Origin: Candidatus Bathyarchaeota archaeon
GTDB taxonomy: Archaea > Thermoproteota > Bathyarchaeia > 40CM-2-53-6
Assembly: GCA_005888755.1 (NCBI GenBank)
Contig: VBBQ01000026.1
Span: 43,746-107,745, forward strand
Length of the DNA: 64,000 nt
Direction: 5' to 3'
In this document: positions 13,893 to 26,461 of the stretch, one piece after another
How positions within the stretch are numbered: the stretch's first letter is position 1
How the letters are laid out: the number at the start of each line of letters is the position of its first letter
Notes under the pieces: model-generated
Database searches by the model: none
Seen by the model: the letters and a program-made list of their open reading frames with translations, nothing else
Told to the model about the DNA's origin: nothing
Program-made: the position numbers and the translations under genes

Positions 13893-15221
13893 TTGGTTCA
13901 ACTTCACTCCAACGCTCGTGCCCACAATTTGACCGATCAAATCCAAGAACCTCTCCCAGCGCAAACGGCACCTAGGTCTCAAGCCAGTAGGGCTGCACTG
14001 GTATTCATATTCGCCACAGTCCTCTTTGATACCATCGGATTCGGGATCATAATTCCCGTACTCCCTGGTCTGGTAGTCGGCTTCGTAGGAGGAAACACAG
14101 CTCAAGGCGCCGAAGTCTTCGGCCTCTTCGGTACAACCTGGGCTCTGATGCAATTCCTATTCGCTCCATTGCTAGGCGCATTATCCGACCGGTACGGTCG
14201 ACGACCCGTCCTCATCCTCTCGGCATTCGGCCTCGGCATAGACTACATCATAATGGCCCTCGCCCCCAACCTAACCTGGCTCTTCATCGGACGAGTTGTC
14301 AGCGGAATCACTAGTGCAAGCTTCACTGTCAGCTTCGCCTACGTGGCCGACACTACCCCCGGCGAGAAACGGGCCGGCGCCTACGGCATGATAGGCTCGA
14401 TCTTTGGAGTAGGATTCATCATCGGACCGCTCGTCGGAGGACTATTGGCGGGAATAGGCCCGCGATTCCCATTCTGGGGTGCAGCAGCACTCTCGCTGGC
14501 AAGTGCTGCATACGGACTGATTGTGCTGCCGGAGTCTCTTCCTCTCGAGCATAGACGTCCGGTCTCGCTTCGAAGAGCCAACCCTATCGGCTCTCTATCC
14601 ATGATCCGGGGCCGAAAGGGGCTCGCGGGCTTTGTTACAATCAACTTCCTTAACTTCCTCGCCTTCCAAGTCCTACCCAGCATCTACGTACTCTACGCTG
14701 CCTACAGATACGGCTGGGGGTATGCAACAGTCGGAGCAGCACTCGCCCTAGTAGGTGCATCCAACATCATAGTTCAAGGACTCCTCGTCCGGCGGGTCGT
14801 CACACGGTTCGGCGAACGAACCGCCCTGCTCATCGGAATAATCTCAGGAACGGTAGGATTCGTGACCTGGGGCCTCGCACCGAACAGCCTCCTATTCATG
14901 ATCGCAATAATCTTCTACGCCCCAATCGGATTCGTCCAGCCCGCATTGCAAGGCCTGATGACTCGGCGGGTGGGCCCATCTGAACAAGGACAACTCCAAG
15001 GCATCAACGGCAGCCTCTTGGGCCTCACCGGTGTCATCGGACCCACGCTTTTCACTCTAGTATTCGCATTCTTCATTAGCAGCCAAGCCCCCGTCAATCT
15101 TCCAGGCGCACCATTCCTGCTCTCCGCACTCTTGATGATCAGCTCACTCATCTTAACCGCAAAAGTCACCCGTGCGAAAGATCAGAGTTCAGTTAGCAAC
15201 GACCCTCCGAACACGTATTGA
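13893..15221 (+). CDS. Major facilitator superfamily exporter (TetA/DHA1-like)
   Basis: The 442-residue protein has twelve hydrophobic segments. The first helix carries the tetracycline-exporter-like LFDTIGFGIIIPVLPGLV. The MFS motif A occurs as GALSDRYGRRPVL after helix 2, and GRVVSGITSAS is motif B-like. The DHA1 family exports drugs or metabolites against protons; the substrate is not predictable. No ATG precedes helix 1, so TTG at 13893 (or 13929) is the likely start. Strongly C-ending codons suggest a bacterial origin. Confidence 0.9.
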   Translation: MVQLHSNARAHNLTDQIQEPLPAQTAPRSQASRAALVFIFATVLFDTIGFGIIIPVLPGLVVGFVGGNTAQGAEVFGLFGTTWALMQFLFAPLLGALSDRYGRRPVLILSAFGLGIDYIIMALAPNLTWLFIGRVVSGITSASFTVSFAYVADTTPGEKRAGAYGMIGSIFGVGFIIGPLVGGLLAGIGPRFPFWGAAALSLASAAYGLIVLPESLPLEHRRPVSLRRANPIGSLSMIRGRKGLAGFVTINFLNFLAFQVLPSIYVLYAAYRYGWGYATVGAALALVGASNIIVQGLLVRRVVTRFGERTALLIGIISGTVGFVTWGLAPNSLLFMIAIIFYAPIGFVQPALQGLMTRRVGPSEQGQLQGINGSLLGLTGVIGPTLFTLVFAFFISSQAPVNLPGAPFLLSALLMISSLILTAKVTRAKDQSSVSNDPPNTY

Positions 15222-17853: not shown

Positions 17854-18019
17854 CCCTACGCCATTTCAACGTCTGTGGCGCCATCCCTCATCTTCCTAAT
17901 CTCCATGGTGCTTTCGAAACCTACGCCCTCGGTCTTCCTCCTCGACGCGTCCATTCCAGCAGCTGAGGTCTCAGCGACCTGTCCTCGTGTCGCATGAGTC
18001 AGGATACCCAAGACTTTCG

Positions 18020-18042
18020 CAACTTTGTAAACCCGTAAGTTG
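18020..18042. promoter_or_regulatory. Inverted repeat CAACTT-N11-AAGTTG, candidate operator
   Basis: Two perfect six-base arms flank 11 bases. They end directly before the AT-rich GAAATACTCTTAAG, which is placed like a TATA element some 20-28 nt upstream of ATG 18071. The site is positioned to control the regulator-SDR-QueA-like operon and may be bound by the regulator itself. This is an inference from position. Confidence 0.45.
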
Positions 18043-18070
18043 AAATACTCTTAAGACCAAACATCACGCA

Positions 18071-18742
18071 ATGAGCATTCCACTCCTAGATCCACCGGCA
18101 GGCAACCCAACCTTCGGATCTACCAAGCGCGAAATCCTATTAATTCTCAAACGCGAAGGCCAGTCAGATCTCCAAACTCTCGCCGAACACTTACGAATCT
18201 CAAAAATGGCGGTTCACAAACACGCTCAGGAACTAGAAAAGAGGGGACTGATCGAACGCATACCGGTCCGAGGTACAACAGGCAGGCCCCGCCTCGCCCT
18301 GCGACTCGCCCCCAGCGCAACCTCACTCTTCCCAAGGGCCTACGCGGGAATAACATGCGCCGCCCTCGAATACATCGAGGAGAAGCTTGGACGAAAAGCT
18401 GTTGAAGAAGCTCTCCGTCGCCGACAAGCCGAAACACTCACCACCTACCGCGATCAGGTCAACGCAGAAACCCTCGCCCAACGTGTCCACCAGCTCGCCG
18501 GACTCCGCGATCGCGAAGGATACATGGCCGAAGACCACCAATCAGGCCCCGCAAAGTTCGAGATCCTAGAGCACAATTGTCCGATACTCGCAGTTGCCGA
18601 GAACTACTGGGAGGCATGCACAGTCGAGAACGAACTGTTCCGAAAAGTATTGGATGCGAAAGTTGAGACAACACACCGTGTCGTTGCAGGCGGCAATGTC
18701 TGCCGTTTCCTAGTCACACCGAAACAGAGGACCCCTGGATGA
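18071..18742 (+). CDS. SufR-like winged-helix regulator with a possible Fe-S site
   Basis: The 223-residue protein has an N-terminal winged helix (TKREILLILKREGQSDLQTL then LRISKMAVHKHAQELEKRGL, wing GTTGRPRLALRL). A helical middle and a C-terminal sensing region with three Cys follow: HNCPILAVAENYWEACTV, then VAGGNVCRFLV. The first two are spaced C-x12-C as in SufR; the position of SufR's third Cys is Lys here. In SufR these residues hold an Fe-S cluster that controls DNA binding. It is first in a tightly packed operon, overlapping the SDR by 4 nt, so it probably regulates its own operon. Confidence 0.8.
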   Translation: MSIPLLDPPAGNPTFGSTKREILLILKREGQSDLQTLAEHLRISKMAVHKHAQELEKRGLIERIPVRGTTGRPRLALRLAPSATSLFPRAYAGITCAALEYIEEKLGRKAVEEALRRRQAETLTTYRDQVNAETLAQRVHQLAGLRDREGYMAEDHQSGPAKFEILEHNCPILAVAENYWEACTVENELFRKVLDAKVETTHRVVAGGNVCRFLVTPKQRTPG

Positions 18743-19458
18743 AACGGGTCTCGCTAATCACTGGTGCTGGACGCGGCCTCGGCCGAATACTCGCCACATT
18801 CCTCGCAGGTCAAGGATGCGACATCGTCATAACAGCTCGAACCATCACAGAGCTTCACAACGTTTCTCAATCTCTCGAAAGCCTCGGCACACGAGTCGCC
18901 GCAATTCCTGGTGACATCACAAACCCCGTACACAGGACTCGCTTGCTGCAACAAACGAGAGCCATGGGTGGCCTCAGCCTCCTCGTGAACAACGCCTCTG
19001 ATCTCGGGGAAACCCCACGTCCCGAACTCGCTCGAGCCTCTCTCACGCGATTCCGGACAACACTCGAAACAAACCTAGTCGCCCCACTCGCGCTCATACA
19101 AGAAGCACTCCCTCAACTCGAACAGATGAGGGGACTCGTAGTCAACATCTCCAGCGACGCAAGCCTGGGAGGTTACGAGCGATGGGGAATCTACGGTTCA
19201 ACCAAGGCTGCCCTCGACCTCGCCTCGAAGACTCTTTCAGCAGAACTCAAACCACGCCACATTTCCGTCGTGAGCGTCGACCCCGGTGACATGCGGACCC
19301 GGATGCATCAGGACGCGTTTCCCGGCGAGAACATATCCGACCGCCCCCTCCCAGAAGTAACGCTTCCATTCTGGGCATGGCTCGTCAGCCAAGACCCCGA
19401 ACGCATCACCGGGATGCGCTACCAGGCACAAGGAACACTCTGGGAGATCCCAGCTTGA
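18739..19458 (+). CDS. Short-chain dehydrogenase/reductase
   Basis: The 239-residue classical SDR has the nucleotide motif TGAGRGLG (about residues 8-15), the NNAS motif (about 89), the catalytic Ser in NISSD and YGSTKAALDLASK with Tyr-x-x-x-Lys (about 155-159). Basic residues after the second strand (ITARTI) suggest NADP. It overlaps the regulator upstream (ATGA) and the QueA-like gene downstream, so the three are co-transcribed and probably act in one pathway. The substrate is unknown. Confidence 0.9.
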   Translation: MKRVSLITGAGRGLGRILATFLAGQGCDIVITARTITELHNVSQSLESLGTRVAAIPGDITNPVHRTRLLQQTRAMGGLSLLVNNASDLGETPRPELARASLTRFRTTLETNLVAPLALIQEALPQLEQMRGLVVNISSDASLGGYERWGIYGSTKAALDLASKTLSAELKPRHISVVSVDPGDMRTRMHQDAFPGENISDRPLPEVTLPFWAWLVSQDPERITGMRYQAQGTLWEIPA

Positions 19459-20495
19459 ACCGATCCGAACTCATGTTCGACCGTCCCACCGATCTCTTCG
19501 CCAGCGCACCCCCGGAGATGCGTGGACATGACCGAGATGACATCCGCCTAATGGTCTCGACACCCGACGGCGATATACACTACACGTTCACTGATCTGCC
19601 TGGGCTCCTAGAACCTGGAGACATGCTAGTTGTCAACGAGAGCGCGACCTTGCCCGCAAGCCTCCCAGCCGCAAGCCGTCTAGGCAACATCAGACTCAAC
19701 CTCTCAACACGATTTGCAGACGACCTCTGGCTCGCGGAACCAAGATGGAGTCCATCAAGGCCCGGCCCGCTACCCCTCAAGGAACACGAGATGATTCAGA
19801 TCGGCGAGGCGAAAGCCCTCCTGCTCCAACAGTATCCTGGAATCCCGAGACTCTGGTTCGTCCGCCTAGACACTCCAGCTAGCTGTCTCATGGCCAAGTA
19901 CGGCGAGCCCATTCACTACAATTACGCTCCCGCCTATCCCATGTCAAACTATCAAACCATCTTCTCCCGCTTCCCGGGAAGTGTCGAGATGCCAAGTGCC
20001 GCACGGCCCATCACAGCACATGTCCGCGACATGCTTCGCTCACGTGGCATCGGCATTGTTGGAGTAATCCTTCACACCGGTGTCTCGAGCCTAGAGATTG
20101 AAGATGAAACAGTGGAGCACCAAGCTCTCTACCCAGAGGTCTTCCGGGTCCCCGAAGCAAGCGCAACCGCTGTCAACGCAACGCACGCCCGAGGCGGCCG
20201 CGTCATCGCCGTCGGAACCACAGTCGTCCGTGCTCTCGAAACCGCCTGGACACCAAACGGCCTTCGCGCCATCTCTGGAGCAACCGGCCTCTACATTCAC
20301 CCCGGAAACAGCATCCATGCTATCGATGGACTCCTCACAGGATTGCATGATCCTGTAACGAGCCATCTTGCGATGCTCAGCGCGATCGCGGGCCTCGACC
20401 GGGTCAAGAAAGCATACGGTGAGGCCATCCGGAACCGGTACCTCTGGCATGAATTCGGCGACAGCCATCTACTGTGGCGACAGGACGCAAACTAA
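19455..20495 (+). CDS. QueA-like S-adenosylmethionine:tRNA ribosyltransferase-isomerase homologue, divergent
   Basis: The product resembles bacterial QueA in LEPGDMLVVNESATLPASLP (about 45-64), the NYQTIFSRFPGSVE block, GIVGVILHTGV, GGRVIAVGTTVVRALE and the DGLLTGLHDP tail. QueA makes the cyclopentene ring of queuosine from SAM. Here the signature PTAGLHF loop reads MPSAARPIT and NFH near the end is GLH, so the catalytic loop has changed. Bacterial queuosine is not normally made in archaea, so another reaction is likely. Starts are TTG 19455 (overlapping the SDR stop) or ATG 19473. It is last in the operon with the SufR-like regulator and SDR. Confidence 0.85.
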   Translation: MNRSELMFDRPTDLFASAPPEMRGHDRDDIRLMVSTPDGDIHYTFTDLPGLLEPGDMLVVNESATLPASLPAASRLGNIRLNLSTRFADDLWLAEPRWSPSRPGPLPLKEHEMIQIGEAKALLLQQYPGIPRLWFVRLDTPASCLMAKYGEPIHYNYAPAYPMSNYQTIFSRFPGSVEMPSAARPITAHVRDMLRSRGIGIVGVILHTGVSSLEIEDETVEHQALYPEVFRVPEASATAVNATHARGGRVIAVGTTVVRALETAWTPNGLRAISGATGLYIHPGNSIHAIDGLLTGLHDPVTSHLAMLSAIAGLDRVKKAYGEAIRNRYLWHEFGDSHLLWRQDAN

Positions 20496-20592: not shown

Positions 20593-21228
20593 CTAGCGGA
20601 GCCGTTTGTCTTGTTCCTCCTCTAGAGAGGAGACTCGGACGTCATAGAGGAACTCGCGCAGCTCGTCTTCATGTTTCGGATCATCGGGTAGAGGCGACTC
20701 CTTCAGCGCTAAGTCTAGTTCATCGATGAATTTCGGGATATCCTTCGGCGAGGTCCCAGTTATGGGCCGATATTCGATGACGCCTTCGCGCAGTAGTTTG
20801 CAGCCCATTATGATTGTTCGTGCAATCGTGTTGCATCGTTTTGCGCTGTCGTCGCGTTCGCTGACGATATACTTTTCATAATTGTGCTCAGCAAGACCCT
20901 TTATGCTATGATAGGCTCTCTTACTGTAGTTCATCGCTGCAAGGCGGTGCAGCTCCGATAGACGGGACCAGTCTTTGACGACTATCGGACTCATGACTCC
21001 ACTCAGATAGTTCCAGTTGTTCCTCAAAACTTGATTTACTATGCGACCAAGCTCGTGATACTGTCTATCAGTTGGGCCGGAGTATTCAACCCTAGATTGA
21101 TCGTCAAACTCGCCGCGAAGGATCGACTTGGTTGGAGCGAGGACTGCAACGAAAAGGTCCAGGTCTGATCCTGGATGATTCATCTGCCACATGTGCGATC
21201 CTACGTTCGTTACGAATAGTTCCTTCAT
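20593..21228 (-). CDS. Nucleotidyltransferase (Pol-beta fold)
   Basis: The 211-residue protein has GSHMWQMNHPGSDLDLFVAV at about residues 10-29, the G-S...D-x-D site of minimal nucleotidyltransferases. A helical C-terminal half follows (YSKRAYHSIKGLAEHNYEKY). YcgL/DNA-polymerase-beta-like enzymes of this class transfer nucleotides to proteins or small molecules; some are antitoxin or toxin partners. No partner gene is adjacent. It converges with the QueA-like gene. Confidence 0.75.
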   Translation of the reverse strand: MKELFVTNVGSHMWQMNHPGSDLDLFVAVLAPTKSILRGEFDDQSRVEYSGPTDRQYHELGRIVNQVLRNNWNYLSGVMSPIVVKDWSRLSELHRLAAMNYSKRAYHSIKGLAEHNYEKYIVSERDDSAKRCNTIARTIIMGCKLLREGVIEYRPITGTSPKDIPKFIDELDLALKESPLPDDPKHEDELREFLYDVRVSSLEEEQDKRLR

Positions 21229-22498: not shown

Positions 22499-25400
22499 CT
22501 ATGGTTTCCAGCCAATTGCTCTGAACTGCGACGTGCCAGTGGGAAAAGTCGTGAGTTTCGTTAGTGTTCCGTTGTTGTAGGTCAGTATGGTGCCGCTTCC
22601 GCCCGCGATGTAAGCTGTGCCTGATGGGGACCAGCTGATACCGTAGAGCCAGCTCGAAGTTATAGTCGGAAGCATGGTCAATGTTGACCCGTTGTAAGTG
22701 AGCACCATTCCGTTGTCACCGGCCAAAAGTGCGAGGGTGCCTGTTGGGTTGAAGGAGATCGCCCGGATAGCGGCGTTGGGTGAGATGATGCTCGTGTTGA
22801 TCGTGGCAACCTGTGTCCCATCGAACTGTAACAGCGTCCGGTTGAGCCCGCCTATCAAAGCGTACGCGCTATTCGGATTCCACGCCGCCGCGTCCAAGTC
22901 GAACGTTGTGCCGGTCGCGAACGAGCGGACTGTTGTCCCATCATATGTCAACGCCAACCCGACCTTGCCTATCAAGAGCGCATAACTACCGCTCGGATTC
23001 CAGCTGATCGAAAGAATGGTTGATGACGTGTTAGGAATTGTCGTGACCGTGACGCCATCGTACTTGAACAGGATACCCGACGTGCCACCTACCAGCGCAA
23101 AGGACCCGTCAGGCTTCCAGGAAACAGTCCAGAAATTGAACCCGGTCGAGATACCGGTTGACACAGTCGTAAGCGATGTTCCATCGTACTTCAGAAGAAC
23201 CGCAAAGTCTCCCGATATCAGCGCGTAGGACCCGTCAGGCTTCCAAGCAACCGACCGCAAGGCAGTCGTTACCGGCTGGCCAATCAGCGTCAGCGTGCCA
23301 TTCGGGTAAAGCCTGGAAACCTTTCCGTCGTTGGTGACGACAAGAGCATAGGCCGATTGCGGAGACGCACCGACAACCGTTACAGTTTCGCTACCGCTAC
23401 TGCCAAGGTGCGACGAATCTCCTGCATAGCTAGAGGTTATCGTGTGGAACCCGGTTATACTAGGCGTGTAGCTGACCGAGCAACTCGCAACACCAACGGT
23501 CCCTGAAGCTGTCAGTGAGCAGCTGGGCTGGGAGAATACGCCTGTCGAGTTCGAAGCGAAACTGACAGAACCGCTAGGAGTAACACTGCCTCCACTTGAG
23601 GAGTCGGTGATCGTAGCCGAACAATTGGAGGTCTGGTTTACAACAACCGGGCTAGTGCATACGACCACGCTTGAAGTAGTACGCTGATTGATCATCACGT
23701 TCGCTCCGGCGCTGGTGCTCGCACTGTGAGCAGTGTCGCCGCCGTATCCGCCTGCGATTGTAGCAGTGCCTGATGCTGTTGCGGTGAAGGTAACAGAACA
23801 ACTGCCCGAAACTAGAGCGCAGGTCGCGGAGCTGAAAGATCCCGGAGCTCCGGTCTCTGTGAAATTGATGCTACCCGACGGAGTGATCGTTGTTCCCGGT
23901 GACGTGTCAGAGACTGTCACAGTACAAGATGAAGCCTGGTTTACAAAAACTGGACTCGAACAGACCAAAGCTGTAGAAGTCGTCCGTGGGTCTACCGTGA
24001 TACTTGCGGCCGCGCTAGTGCTCCCGCCATGCGACGAGTCGCCACCATACGTGCCAGTAACTAACGCATTGCCACTTGCAGCCGGAGTAAACGTGACCGA
24101 GCAGCTACCTGATGATAGAGAGCAAGAGGTCGAGCTGAACGAACCAGCAGGACCTGTCTCAGTGAACCTGACTATTCCCGTTGGAGTAGTTGAGCTGGCG
24201 TTAGTGTCTGTCACCGTCGCCGTGCACAATGATCCCTGGTTGACCAGAACTGGGCTGGCGCAGGTAACTGCCGTTGTTGTGTTATGAAGTGGCACAGTGG
24301 TCACAGTTACGCTGAACGCTGGACTCGTGCTAGCAGCATGAGCAGAGTCACCGCCGTACGCACCGGTGATCAGGGCGGAACCTGCTGCAGTAGGAGTGAA
24401 AATAACCGAGCAACTACCAGACACTAGAGTGCATGTAGTCGAGCTGAAAGAGCCGGCAGGACCAGTCTCGGCAAATGTGACAGTACCCGTCGGGGTGGTT
24501 GGGGAGATCGTCGATGTGTCACTCACCGTCGCGGTGCAAGTGGAAGCCTGGTTCACGATCACAGAGGAAGGAGAGCAATTAACAACGGTTGCAGTCGTGT
24601 GCTGGCCCACGTGAACCTGGACAACGACCAAGTGCAGTAGCGAGCCACTGGTCGCCTTGATCGTCACGTTGTAAACGCCTGAGGCCTGGTTAGACGGTAC
24701 CTGAACGGAGAGAACTGAACTCTTCGTCCCGTTTACGGTGAGACTTGGATTGTTCGGGTTCAGAGTCGCTTTAGGTCCAGCAGGGCTCACGGATACCGTG
24801 GTGGATATTCCTCCTTGGAATGTGTAGAGGCTCTGGAACAGGATCTGGGAGGTCCCCGAGGATCCTGGGGAGATATTCAAGGTAACAGGGTTGGCCGTCA
24901 TGTTAAAGTCCGGCACTCGCACTGTCACATTCAACGCGTGGACCAGAGACCCGCTGGTCCCTGTCACGGTCGCAATGTAGATCCCGGTTGGCACCGTCTT
25001 GCTCGCAACGATTTTTAGATTGTCGTTGACCGTTTGGCCGACGTTCAACGTCACGGACGGGTTTTGCATCGAGACAGCCAATCCTTGGGGAGAGACAAAG
25101 GCCGTTAGAGCGACTGTTCCCTTGAATCCTCCAAGGCCTGTGACAGCAATCGCGGACTGGCTGTTCTGGCCCCGCTGAACCGTCAGAAGGTACGGCTTAG
25201 CAACGAGTTTGAAGTCGAACGTCGACACCGTGATACTGTTCGAGACAGAAGCGGTGTGACCCGCAGAATCACTTGTCGTCAGGGTAACGGCATAGGATCC
25301 GCCTGCCGAATAGACATGAGTCACCGGGTTTCCTGTTGCCGAGCTTCCGTCTCCGAAAGTCCAGTTGAACATGTAGGGAGAAGAGCCTCCCGACGCCGTG

Positions 25401-26461
25401 CCAGTGAAAGTTACACTCTGGCCGGGAACGGGGGAAGACGGACTGAATGCAAAGCTGGTGGAGAGTGGATTGGTGGTGAAGAATTCGGCCATAGGAGTAG
25501 CTGAGGCGTCGTTAGTTGCCAAGCTAGCGAGGTTCCAGTTGACTTCTACAGTCTTTGTGAACGAGTAGTGGTTGTAGAGGTTACTCGTGACAAAACTAGT
25601 CTTTGTCCCTGGTCCTGCCCAAACTGCATAGACGCAGTCCTCAGAACTACCATTGAGGGGGCAGTACCCATTGCCCTCGTCGAAGACGAGGAACAGTGCA
25701 GAGCGTTGTGTTGTGAAGGTCCGGCTGTTGAGAATATTCGGCACGAGACCGCTGAGATAGTTGTCTCCTAACGGGATCGAGGTGGCACAGATGCCGGTGA
25801 CGCCGTGCATGTTGTTGCAATTATTCGGGGTGAGCCACATGAAATTCGGCGCCGCCGCCGAATTCAAGTCGTTAATCAATACACAATCTGTGACAGAGCA
25901 AGTTGTCGGGTTTGCCATGACGAGATTAGAACATCGGGCCGGATTACTTGTGATGTCGGTGAAGAAGACGAAGGGGTTGTGTTCTGGAGTATATGGCTCA
26001 TTGTAGCCAGTGTCGCAACCGCTTGAAGGTGCCTGGTTCTCCATGTAGCCTTTCCAGGTTAATCCTGCGGCTTCAAACCGGTCCACCAAGTTCGCGTTTG
26101 CTGATGCTTGGCAGGGGTAGGCGACACAGCCGTTGATGTCTCCTCCGAGAGTGGCTATGTAGTCAGCCTGGCTGAAGTGGGAAACTCCGAGATACTGGGA
26201 ACCTATCCCGTAGCTGTTGGCGAGGCCGGCAGCGTAGGGGTCTCCGTTTGTGCTCAAGCATGGCGGTGGACTCCGAGCGCAGATGTTGTTGATGCCATGG
26301 TCCTCCATCATAATGATCACGACATGATCGAAGTAGGTTCCGCTGGAAGGTGAAGCAGACACGGGTCTTATGCCCCCACCAACCATTGCTGTGCCTAGAA
26401 CCGAGAGGAATAAACCAGCCAGAAGGATCGCAGCCTTTCCTATGTGAATGCGATTGTTCAT
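22499..26461 (-). CDS. Very large secreted phosphoesterase with PKD, Ig-like and seven-bladed propeller domains
   Basis: The product is 1320 residues. It has a signal peptide (about 1-36), then a PF04185-type phosphoesterase/acid-phosphatase domain (about 42-330) starting HVVIIMMEDHGINNI with DEGNG near its end. A PKD domain follows (NWTFGDGSSATG, about 340-412), two Ig-like domains (about 413-617), and four near-identical Ig-like repeats of about 100 residues, each with CxxxVxVNQxSxC and YGGDSxH. A C-terminal propeller of seven about 40-residue blades (SWKPDGSYAL pattern) ends at WKP. It should be a surface or extracellular enzyme that releases phosphate from lipid or nucleotide esters and binds other molecules through its repeats. 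It is monocistronic. Confidence 0.85.
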   Translation of the reverse strand: MNNRIHIGKAAILLAGLFLSVLGTAMVGGGIRPVSASPSSGTYFDHVVIIMMEDHGINNICARSPPPCLSTNGDPYAAGLANSYGIGSQYLGVSHFSQADYIATLGGDINGCVAYPCQASANANLVDRFEAAGLTWKGYMENQAPSSGCDTGYNEPYTPEHNPFVFFTDITSNPARCSNLVMANPTTCSVTDCVLINDLNSAAAPNFMWLTPNNCNNMHGVTGICATSIPLGDNYLSGLVPNILNSRTFTTQRSALFLVFDEGNGYCPLNGSSEDCVYAVWAGPGTKTSFVTSNLYNHYSFTKTVEVNWNLASLATNDASATPMAEFFTTNPLSTSFAFSPSSPVPGQSVTFTGTASGGSSPYMFNWTFGDGSSATGNPVTHVYSAGGSYAVTLTTSDSAGHTASVSNSITVSTFDFKLVAKPYLLTVQRGQNSQSAIAVTGLGGFKGTVALTAFVSPQGLAVSMQNPSVTLNVGQTVNDNLKIVASKTVPTGIYIATVTGTSGSLVHALNVTVRVPDFNMTANPVTLNISPGSSGTSQILFQSLYTFQGGISTTVSVSPAGPKATLNPNNPSLTVNGTKSSVLSVQVPSNQASGVYNVTIKATSGSLLHLVVVQVHVGQHTTATVVNCSPSSVIVNQASTCTATVSDTSTISPTTPTGTVTFAETGPAGSFSSTTCTLVSGSCSVIFTPTAAGSALITGAYGGDSAHAASTSPAFSVTVTTVPLHNTTTAVTCASPVLVNQGSLCTATVTDTNASSTTPTGIVRFTETGPAGSFSSTSCSLSSGSCSVTFTPAASGNALVTGTYGGDSSHGGSTSAAASITVDPRTTSTALVCSSPVFVNQASSCTVTVSDTSPGTTITPSGSINFTETGAPGSFSSATCALVSGSCSVTFTATASGTATIAGGYGGDTAHSASTSAGANVMINQRTTSSVVVCTSPVVVNQTSNCSATITDSSSGGSVTPSGSVSFASNSTGVFSQPSCSLTASGTVGVASCSVSYTPSITGFHTITSSYAGDSSHLGSSGSETVTVVGASPQSAYALVVTNDGKVSRLYPNGTLTLIGQPVTTALRSVAWKPDGSYALISGDFAVLLKYDGTSLTTVSTGISTGFNFWTVSWKPDGSFALVGGTSGILFKYDGVTVTTIPNTSSTILSISWNPSGSYALLIGKVGLALTYDGTTVRSFATGTTFDLDAAAWNPNSAYALIGGLNRTLLQFDGTQVATINTSIISPNAAIRAISFNPTGTLALLAGDNGMVLTYNGSTLTMLPTITSSWLYGISWSPSGTAYIAGGSGTILTYNNGTLTKLTTFPTGTSQFRAIGWKP

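Follow-up and report, generated by a model that had tools for sequence, protein, structure and literature searches.

The three-gene unit described here, which encodes a SufR-like regulator, an SDR and a QueA-like enzyme in a Bathyarchaeal genome, seems on balance to carry out a redox-controlled SAM-ribosyl transfer/isomerisation that is coupled to the SDR and directed at a non-tRNA acceptor. Since the genomes that carry it appear unable to make queuosine, the unit probably makes another, SAM-derived metabolite. A wider proposal, that a QueA-family enzyme and an obligate SDR perform cross-domain SAM-ribosyl chemistry and make a SAM-derived, perhaps carbocyclic, metabolite upon redox or gas signals, outside 7-deazaguanine/tRNA metabolism, is more tentative and falls a little short of an even bet.

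The unit lies in the window, i.e., the whole 64,000-nucleotide stretch of DNA that was analysed, with the following features:

18015-18047, + strand: palindromic element TTTCGCAACTTTGTAAACCCGTAAGTTGAAATA, conserved 5' of the regulator gene; candidate operator/promoter for the three genes
18071-18742, + strand: regulator gene, an ORF for a SufR-like winged-helix protein with C-x12-C-x27-C
18739-19458, + strand: SDR gene, an ORF matching PF00106 (E 3e-39)
19455-20495, + strand: QueA-like gene, an ORF with a TTG start; PF02547, EMPSAARP subfamily
19986-20015, + strand: codons of EMPSAARPIT (residues 178-187), which stand in place of canonical AAPTAGLHFT

The ORF coordinates bear out the preliminary description of three genes with 4-nt overlaps, of which there are two in all, between the regulator and SDR frames and between the SDR and QueA-like frames. 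The TTG at 19455 is the QueA-like start, and orthologues begin at the same position with L/M-[NK]-R-x-E-L. A nearby search gave a QueA-like match at E <= 0.001 in 10 of 61 genomes, with only 44-residue fragments in G020. In the related loci, the regulator, SDR and QueA-like genes stood together wherever the contig was long enough (approximately 70-94% identity), and the recurrence of this grouping in related Bathyarchaeal loci supports the earlier view that the genes form one unit. Close relatives of the unit are labelled Bathyarchaeota and come from soil. The host genome is 2.0 Mb in size and 95% complete; a CDC48 in the window (1074 bits) and an archaeosine-type TGT in the genome agree with the archaeal host proposed earlier. 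Two Bathyarchaeal genomes (G016 and G018) hold two copies of the unit each (L008/L013 and L009/L012), and since the second copies are on short contigs, strain mixture is possible.

Other genes of the window were also inspected. An MFS exporter near tetracycline-efflux families, with scores under their cut-offs, is encoded at 13893-15221 (+); an RlaP-type nucleotidyltransferase, of an RNA repair pathway family, at 20593-21228 (-), where it is not kept beside the unit in relatives; and a 1320-aa protein, probably secreted and with an Ig-like-looking repeat region, at 22499-26461 (-). We also considered whether the F420-type LLM gene upstream, the tetracycline-type MFS gene, or the RlaP gene downstream is linked to the unit; this was rejected, since none of them accompanies it in the archaeal relatives compared, whose loci are short.

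We scanned 84,980 species genomes with two patterns, one of which was EMPSAARP, so that the subfamily signature is partly biased. At least 503 QueA-like relatives were confirmed, and the best 80 loci were analysed. An SDR related to that of the window was located directly upstream of the QueA-like gene in 80 of these 80 loci, a figure that applies to the closer relatives and not to the whole family since the loci are the best-scoring ones; in 66 of the 80, a start codon of the QueA-like frame gives an overlap of exactly 4 nt with the end of the SDR frame. As labelled, the loci span Bathyarchaeota, soil Euryarchaeota, Thermoplasmata, Chloroflexota, Actinomycetota, Acidobacteriota, Pseudomonadota and Bacillota, most of the archaeal ones coming from metagenome-assembled genomes (MAGs). 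Given that the unit is common to Archaea and bacterial phyla, it was probably transferred, as had been supposed; the neighbourhood is thus by no means confined to this genome, the pair being found in every one of the best loci. A QueA-SDR-regulator neighbourhood in actinobacteria had also been suggested. The SDR-QueA pair does occur there and elsewhere, but its regulator is mostly a DevS-like kinase with a response regulator. A SufR-like gene lies beside only 15 of the 80 best loci, so the constant partner of the QueA-like gene is the SDR and not this regulator.

Clustering of neighbour genes gave no third enzyme partner common across lineages, and no acceptor, exporter or downstream gene that might point to the product was conserved beside the unit. 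No viral carriers of the unit were found in the scan, nor was a published description of an SDR plus QueA-like unit found in the literature searched, where subscription journals were thinly covered. One MAG labelled Proteobacteria (L028) contains the archaeal form of the unit at 68% identity; its best TGT match has a score and a frame length similar to those of the archaeal TGTs, and the MAG may be a mislabelled archaeon.

The relation of the third product to QueA, noticed at the outset, was confirmed by a PF02547 match of 234 bits and by its predicted fold. The AlphaFold2 model (pLDDT 93.2, pTM 0.92) had QueA proteins as its top four Foldseek matches, and the only significant PDB matches were the three solved QueA proteins, with 25-27% identity in the structural alignment. 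The protein scored under both QueA equivalog cut-offs (TIGR00113, 147.7 vs 267.45; NF001140, 185.6 vs 324). As first reported, the PTAGLHF loop is replaced, its position being occupied by PSAARPI (residues 180-186); the subfamily motif is EMPSAARP[IF], against APTAGLHF in canonical QueA, and variants such as EMPSAGRAFT were also recovered in the scan. Residues R27, R31, N61, Q167, H207, E228, G254, T255, R259, E262, H298, G335 and D336 are common to the QueA-like and canonical proteins. In the alignment, 15 positions are fixed differently from canonical QueA (T65, I153, Y155, E178, M179, S181, R184, P185, S212, G296, H304, L308, L330, W331 and E333), with E178, R184, H304 and E333 among the newly gained residues, and there are three gap columns.

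A distant SDR-QueA pair is found on Rhizobium plasmids, where a SoxR with the Cys motif CIGCGCLSIDRC diverges from it. The rhizobial SoxR-linked QueA-like proteins do not have MPSAARP and share 10 of the 15 replacements (T65, I153, Y155, E178, S181, S212, G296, H304, L308 and E333). Since these replacements are common to two distant SDR-linked groups, they point to one non-canonical function shared by both. In the maximum-likelihood tree, canonical QueA forms one group (100/100) apart from the SDR-linked sequences, and the rhizobial protein is a separate deep branch. The archaeal sequences nest in a clade of 26 rows (100/99) together with Chloroflexota and others, a placement suggestive of transfer of the QueA-like gene.

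Two further non-canonical QueA proteins were noted. The Geobacillus plasmid pGeo12a (L154, NZ_CP020031 27309-39922) encodes one with EMPAAGRHFT, whose neighbours are a decarboxylase, two thymidylate synthases, a NUDIX protein, two PqqD proteins, a phosphotransferase and an ABC exporter. This region looks like a natural-product cluster, and QueA may therefore have been recruited more than once. In the TGT-less genome of Bailinhaonella thermotolerans, a second member of the QueA family (L138:3946-5256, -) has FPSAGRHFT as its motif and contains an insertion.

The Bathyarchaeal genome has one QueA-family gene and one TGT, of the archaeosine type (TIGR00432, 476 bits). Neither QueG nor QueH was found in this 95% complete genome, and the only QueC matches in it were weak, partial and unconvincing; several Actinomycetes carrying the unit likewise have no strong QueC match. 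A complete queuosine pathway was thus sought in this genome and not found, consistent with the initial view of a divergent QueA that acts outside queuosine synthesis. Among 33 genomes with the unit, where a canonical QueA was present as well, TGT and QueG were generally there too; the exceptions were draft genomes. Among 98 Actinomycetes, the QueA family was present in 24 and TGT in 24, and no genome had both (5.9 expected; hypergeometric P = 4e-4, with relatedness ignored). The missing bacterial-type TGT, QueG and QueH, together with this mutual exclusion, indicate that the preQ1-tRNA substrate would be unavailable, and a queuosine function of the QueA-like enzyme was rejected on the surveys of TGT, QueG, QueH and QueC. 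The initial expectation that archaea do not make queuosine was nevertheless too strong, since some DPANN archaea and Methanosarcinales carry QueA-QueH-TGT (PMC8204110).

The SDR has the features of a classical SDR, namely the PF00106 match, TGxxxGxG and the N-S-Y-K catalytic residues; TGxxxGLG (T8-G15), N112, S139, Y152 and K156 are kept in >90% of orthologues. A basic residue, R34, follows the second strand and points to NADP(H) as the cofactor. In one relative (L022:3286-4004), the SDR is broken by a frameshift, either a sequencing error or decay.

The regulator gave a full-length match to TIGR02702 (SufR) of 128.1 bits, under the cut-off of 178.8, as well as matches to MarR/HTH domains, and it is the sole full-length match of this type within its genome. 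It adjoins the SDR and QueA-like genes and not a suf operon. The SufR-type Cys spacing noted from the sequence held up: the triad is invariant in 15 of 15 aligned orthologues and is spaced identically to C203/C216/C244 of Rv1460 from M. tuberculosis, which are needed for the function of that protein (PMC6034842). The archaeal regulator probably carries an Fe-S cluster. Upstream of its gene, the inverted repeat described earlier is present (CAACTT, 18020-18025; N11; AAGTTG, 18037-18042). In nine other Bathyarchaeal loci, the consensus TTTCGmAACTTTGTAAACCCgtAAGTTGAAATA again precedes the regulator gene, with diverging flanks. The 2.0-Mb genome contains it a single time, and a reversed control gave 0 matches. 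A local autoregulatory operator would look like this, and we infer that the regulator binds it.

At the loci of soil Euryarchaeota, the unit is not preceded by a SufR-like gene. A GAF histidine kinase and a NarL-type response regulator flank 37 of the 80 best loci; they lie upstream, downstream or in divergent orientation, and the loci belong to Actinomycetota, Chloroflexota, Acidobacteriota, Pseudomonadota and Bacillota. The GAF domain of the kinase is closest to the heme domains of DosT and DevS, and 32 of 32 flanking kinases have the His that aligns with that of DevS YHPPM, taken here to be heme ligand H149. As judged from sequence, the strongest regulatory clue is that a single enzyme pair is accompanied by three unrelated families of redox/gas-type sensors.

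We propose that the unit is a metabolic module complete in itself and gated by stress. The reaction proposed for canonical QueA begins with deprotonation and the departure of adenine, which leaves a vinyl sulfonium; an amine then attacks, and the epoxide closes as methionine is lost. The 2023 review that gives this path knew of no QueA structure with bound substrate (PMC10491745). With its retained QueA core, the QueA-like enzyme probably still uses SAM, which would lose adenine and methionine while the ribosyl carbons rearrange. The SAM half of the chemistry would be retained and the acceptor half changed, with a small molecule or another non-preQ1, non-tRNA compound as the acceptor. The translationally coupled SDR, probably NADP(H)-dependent, would reduce or oxidise the substrate or the product. 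The archaeal regulator would bind the palindrome and free the operon when its cluster is lost or oxidised; in other lineages, the DevS-like kinase pair or SoxR would take over its role.

Several other explanations were weighed against this proposal. We give practically no credence to a chance adjacency of unrelated genes: no evidence in its favour was found, and it is refuted by the adjacency in 80 of 80 loci and the identical 4-nt overlap in 66 of 80, across several phyla. A divergent yet functional queuosine enzyme, making epoxyqueuosine on tRNA, is very improbable. The PF02547 match, the QueA fold and the presence of the Q pathway in some other archaea would fit such an enzyme, but the genome lacks bacterial-type TGT, QueG and QueH, TGT is missing from every QueA-family-bearing Actinomycete of the 98-genome sample, the canonical motif is replaced, and the scores fall under both equivalog cut-offs. 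The pair could instead modify an amine-bearing RNA or protein position that is not TGT-derived, with the SDR completing the modification. We consider this improbable since patchy spread, exchangeable regulators and the lack of RNA-modification neighbours fit poorly with a housekeeping role, even though the known acceptor of the QueA family is an RNA base and the fold is retained.

An unlikely but more serious contender is that the pair clears or repairs a damaged or reactive metabolite, such as oxidised SAM, a reactive carbonyl or a redox-cycling compound, the regulators reflecting detoxification. The three unrelated sensor types favour it, SDRs often act on reactive carbonyls, and SoxR commonly responds to redox-active compounds. 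However, QueA chemistry spends SAM, which is costly for clean-up, and no oxidative-stress enzymes are among the constant neighbours. A redox-controlled SAM-ribosyl transfer, which we favour, has its own difficulties: the SufR-like protein is under its family cut-off, the palindrome is spaced unlike the cyanobacterial site, the soil Euryarchaeota loci are without the upstream SufR-like gene, and an HP-x-M motif in a GAF domain need not mean that heme is bound.

A single reaction in a single pathway is all that QueA is known to carry out, and annotations follow this wherever it occurs. A large QueA-like subfamily in TGT-less genomes implies that hundreds of these annotations are wrong and that the unusual SAM chemistry of QueA has been put to a second use. 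The constant SDR and the repeatedly recruited redox/gas-type regulators offer a handle for testing function, and culturable carriers (Streptomyces, Nonomuraea, Amycolatopsis and Rhizobium) put the product within reach.

Compared with known systems, the flanking kinases resemble DevS/DosT-DevR in that their GAF domain is like the GAF-A heme domains and the response regulator is of the NarL/DevR type; they differ in having one GAF domain found, a putative heme and a link to SDR-QueA. Among SoxR-controlled genes, the SoxR-SDR-QueA arrangement was not found described in the literature searched, and its QueA-like protein is a deep branch. The archaeal regulator shares with SufR (TIGR02702; Synechocystis SufR, Rv1460) the full-length match, the C-x12-C-x27-C triad and a palindrome with CAAC/GTTG half-sites preceding its own gene, although it scores under the family cut-off and heads an SDR-QueA operon in place of suf, and its palindrome is CAAC-N15-GTTG whereas the cyanobacterial SufR site is CAAC-N6-GTTG. 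The QueA-like protein retains the fold, length and core residues of QueA (tRNA preQ1(34) S-adenosylmethionine ribosyltransferase-isomerase; PF02547, TIGR00113), but the canonical PLPPY loop, TNFH and SYGD/SFGD are altered, and it is paired with an SDR in 80 of the 80 best loci and does not depend on TGT.
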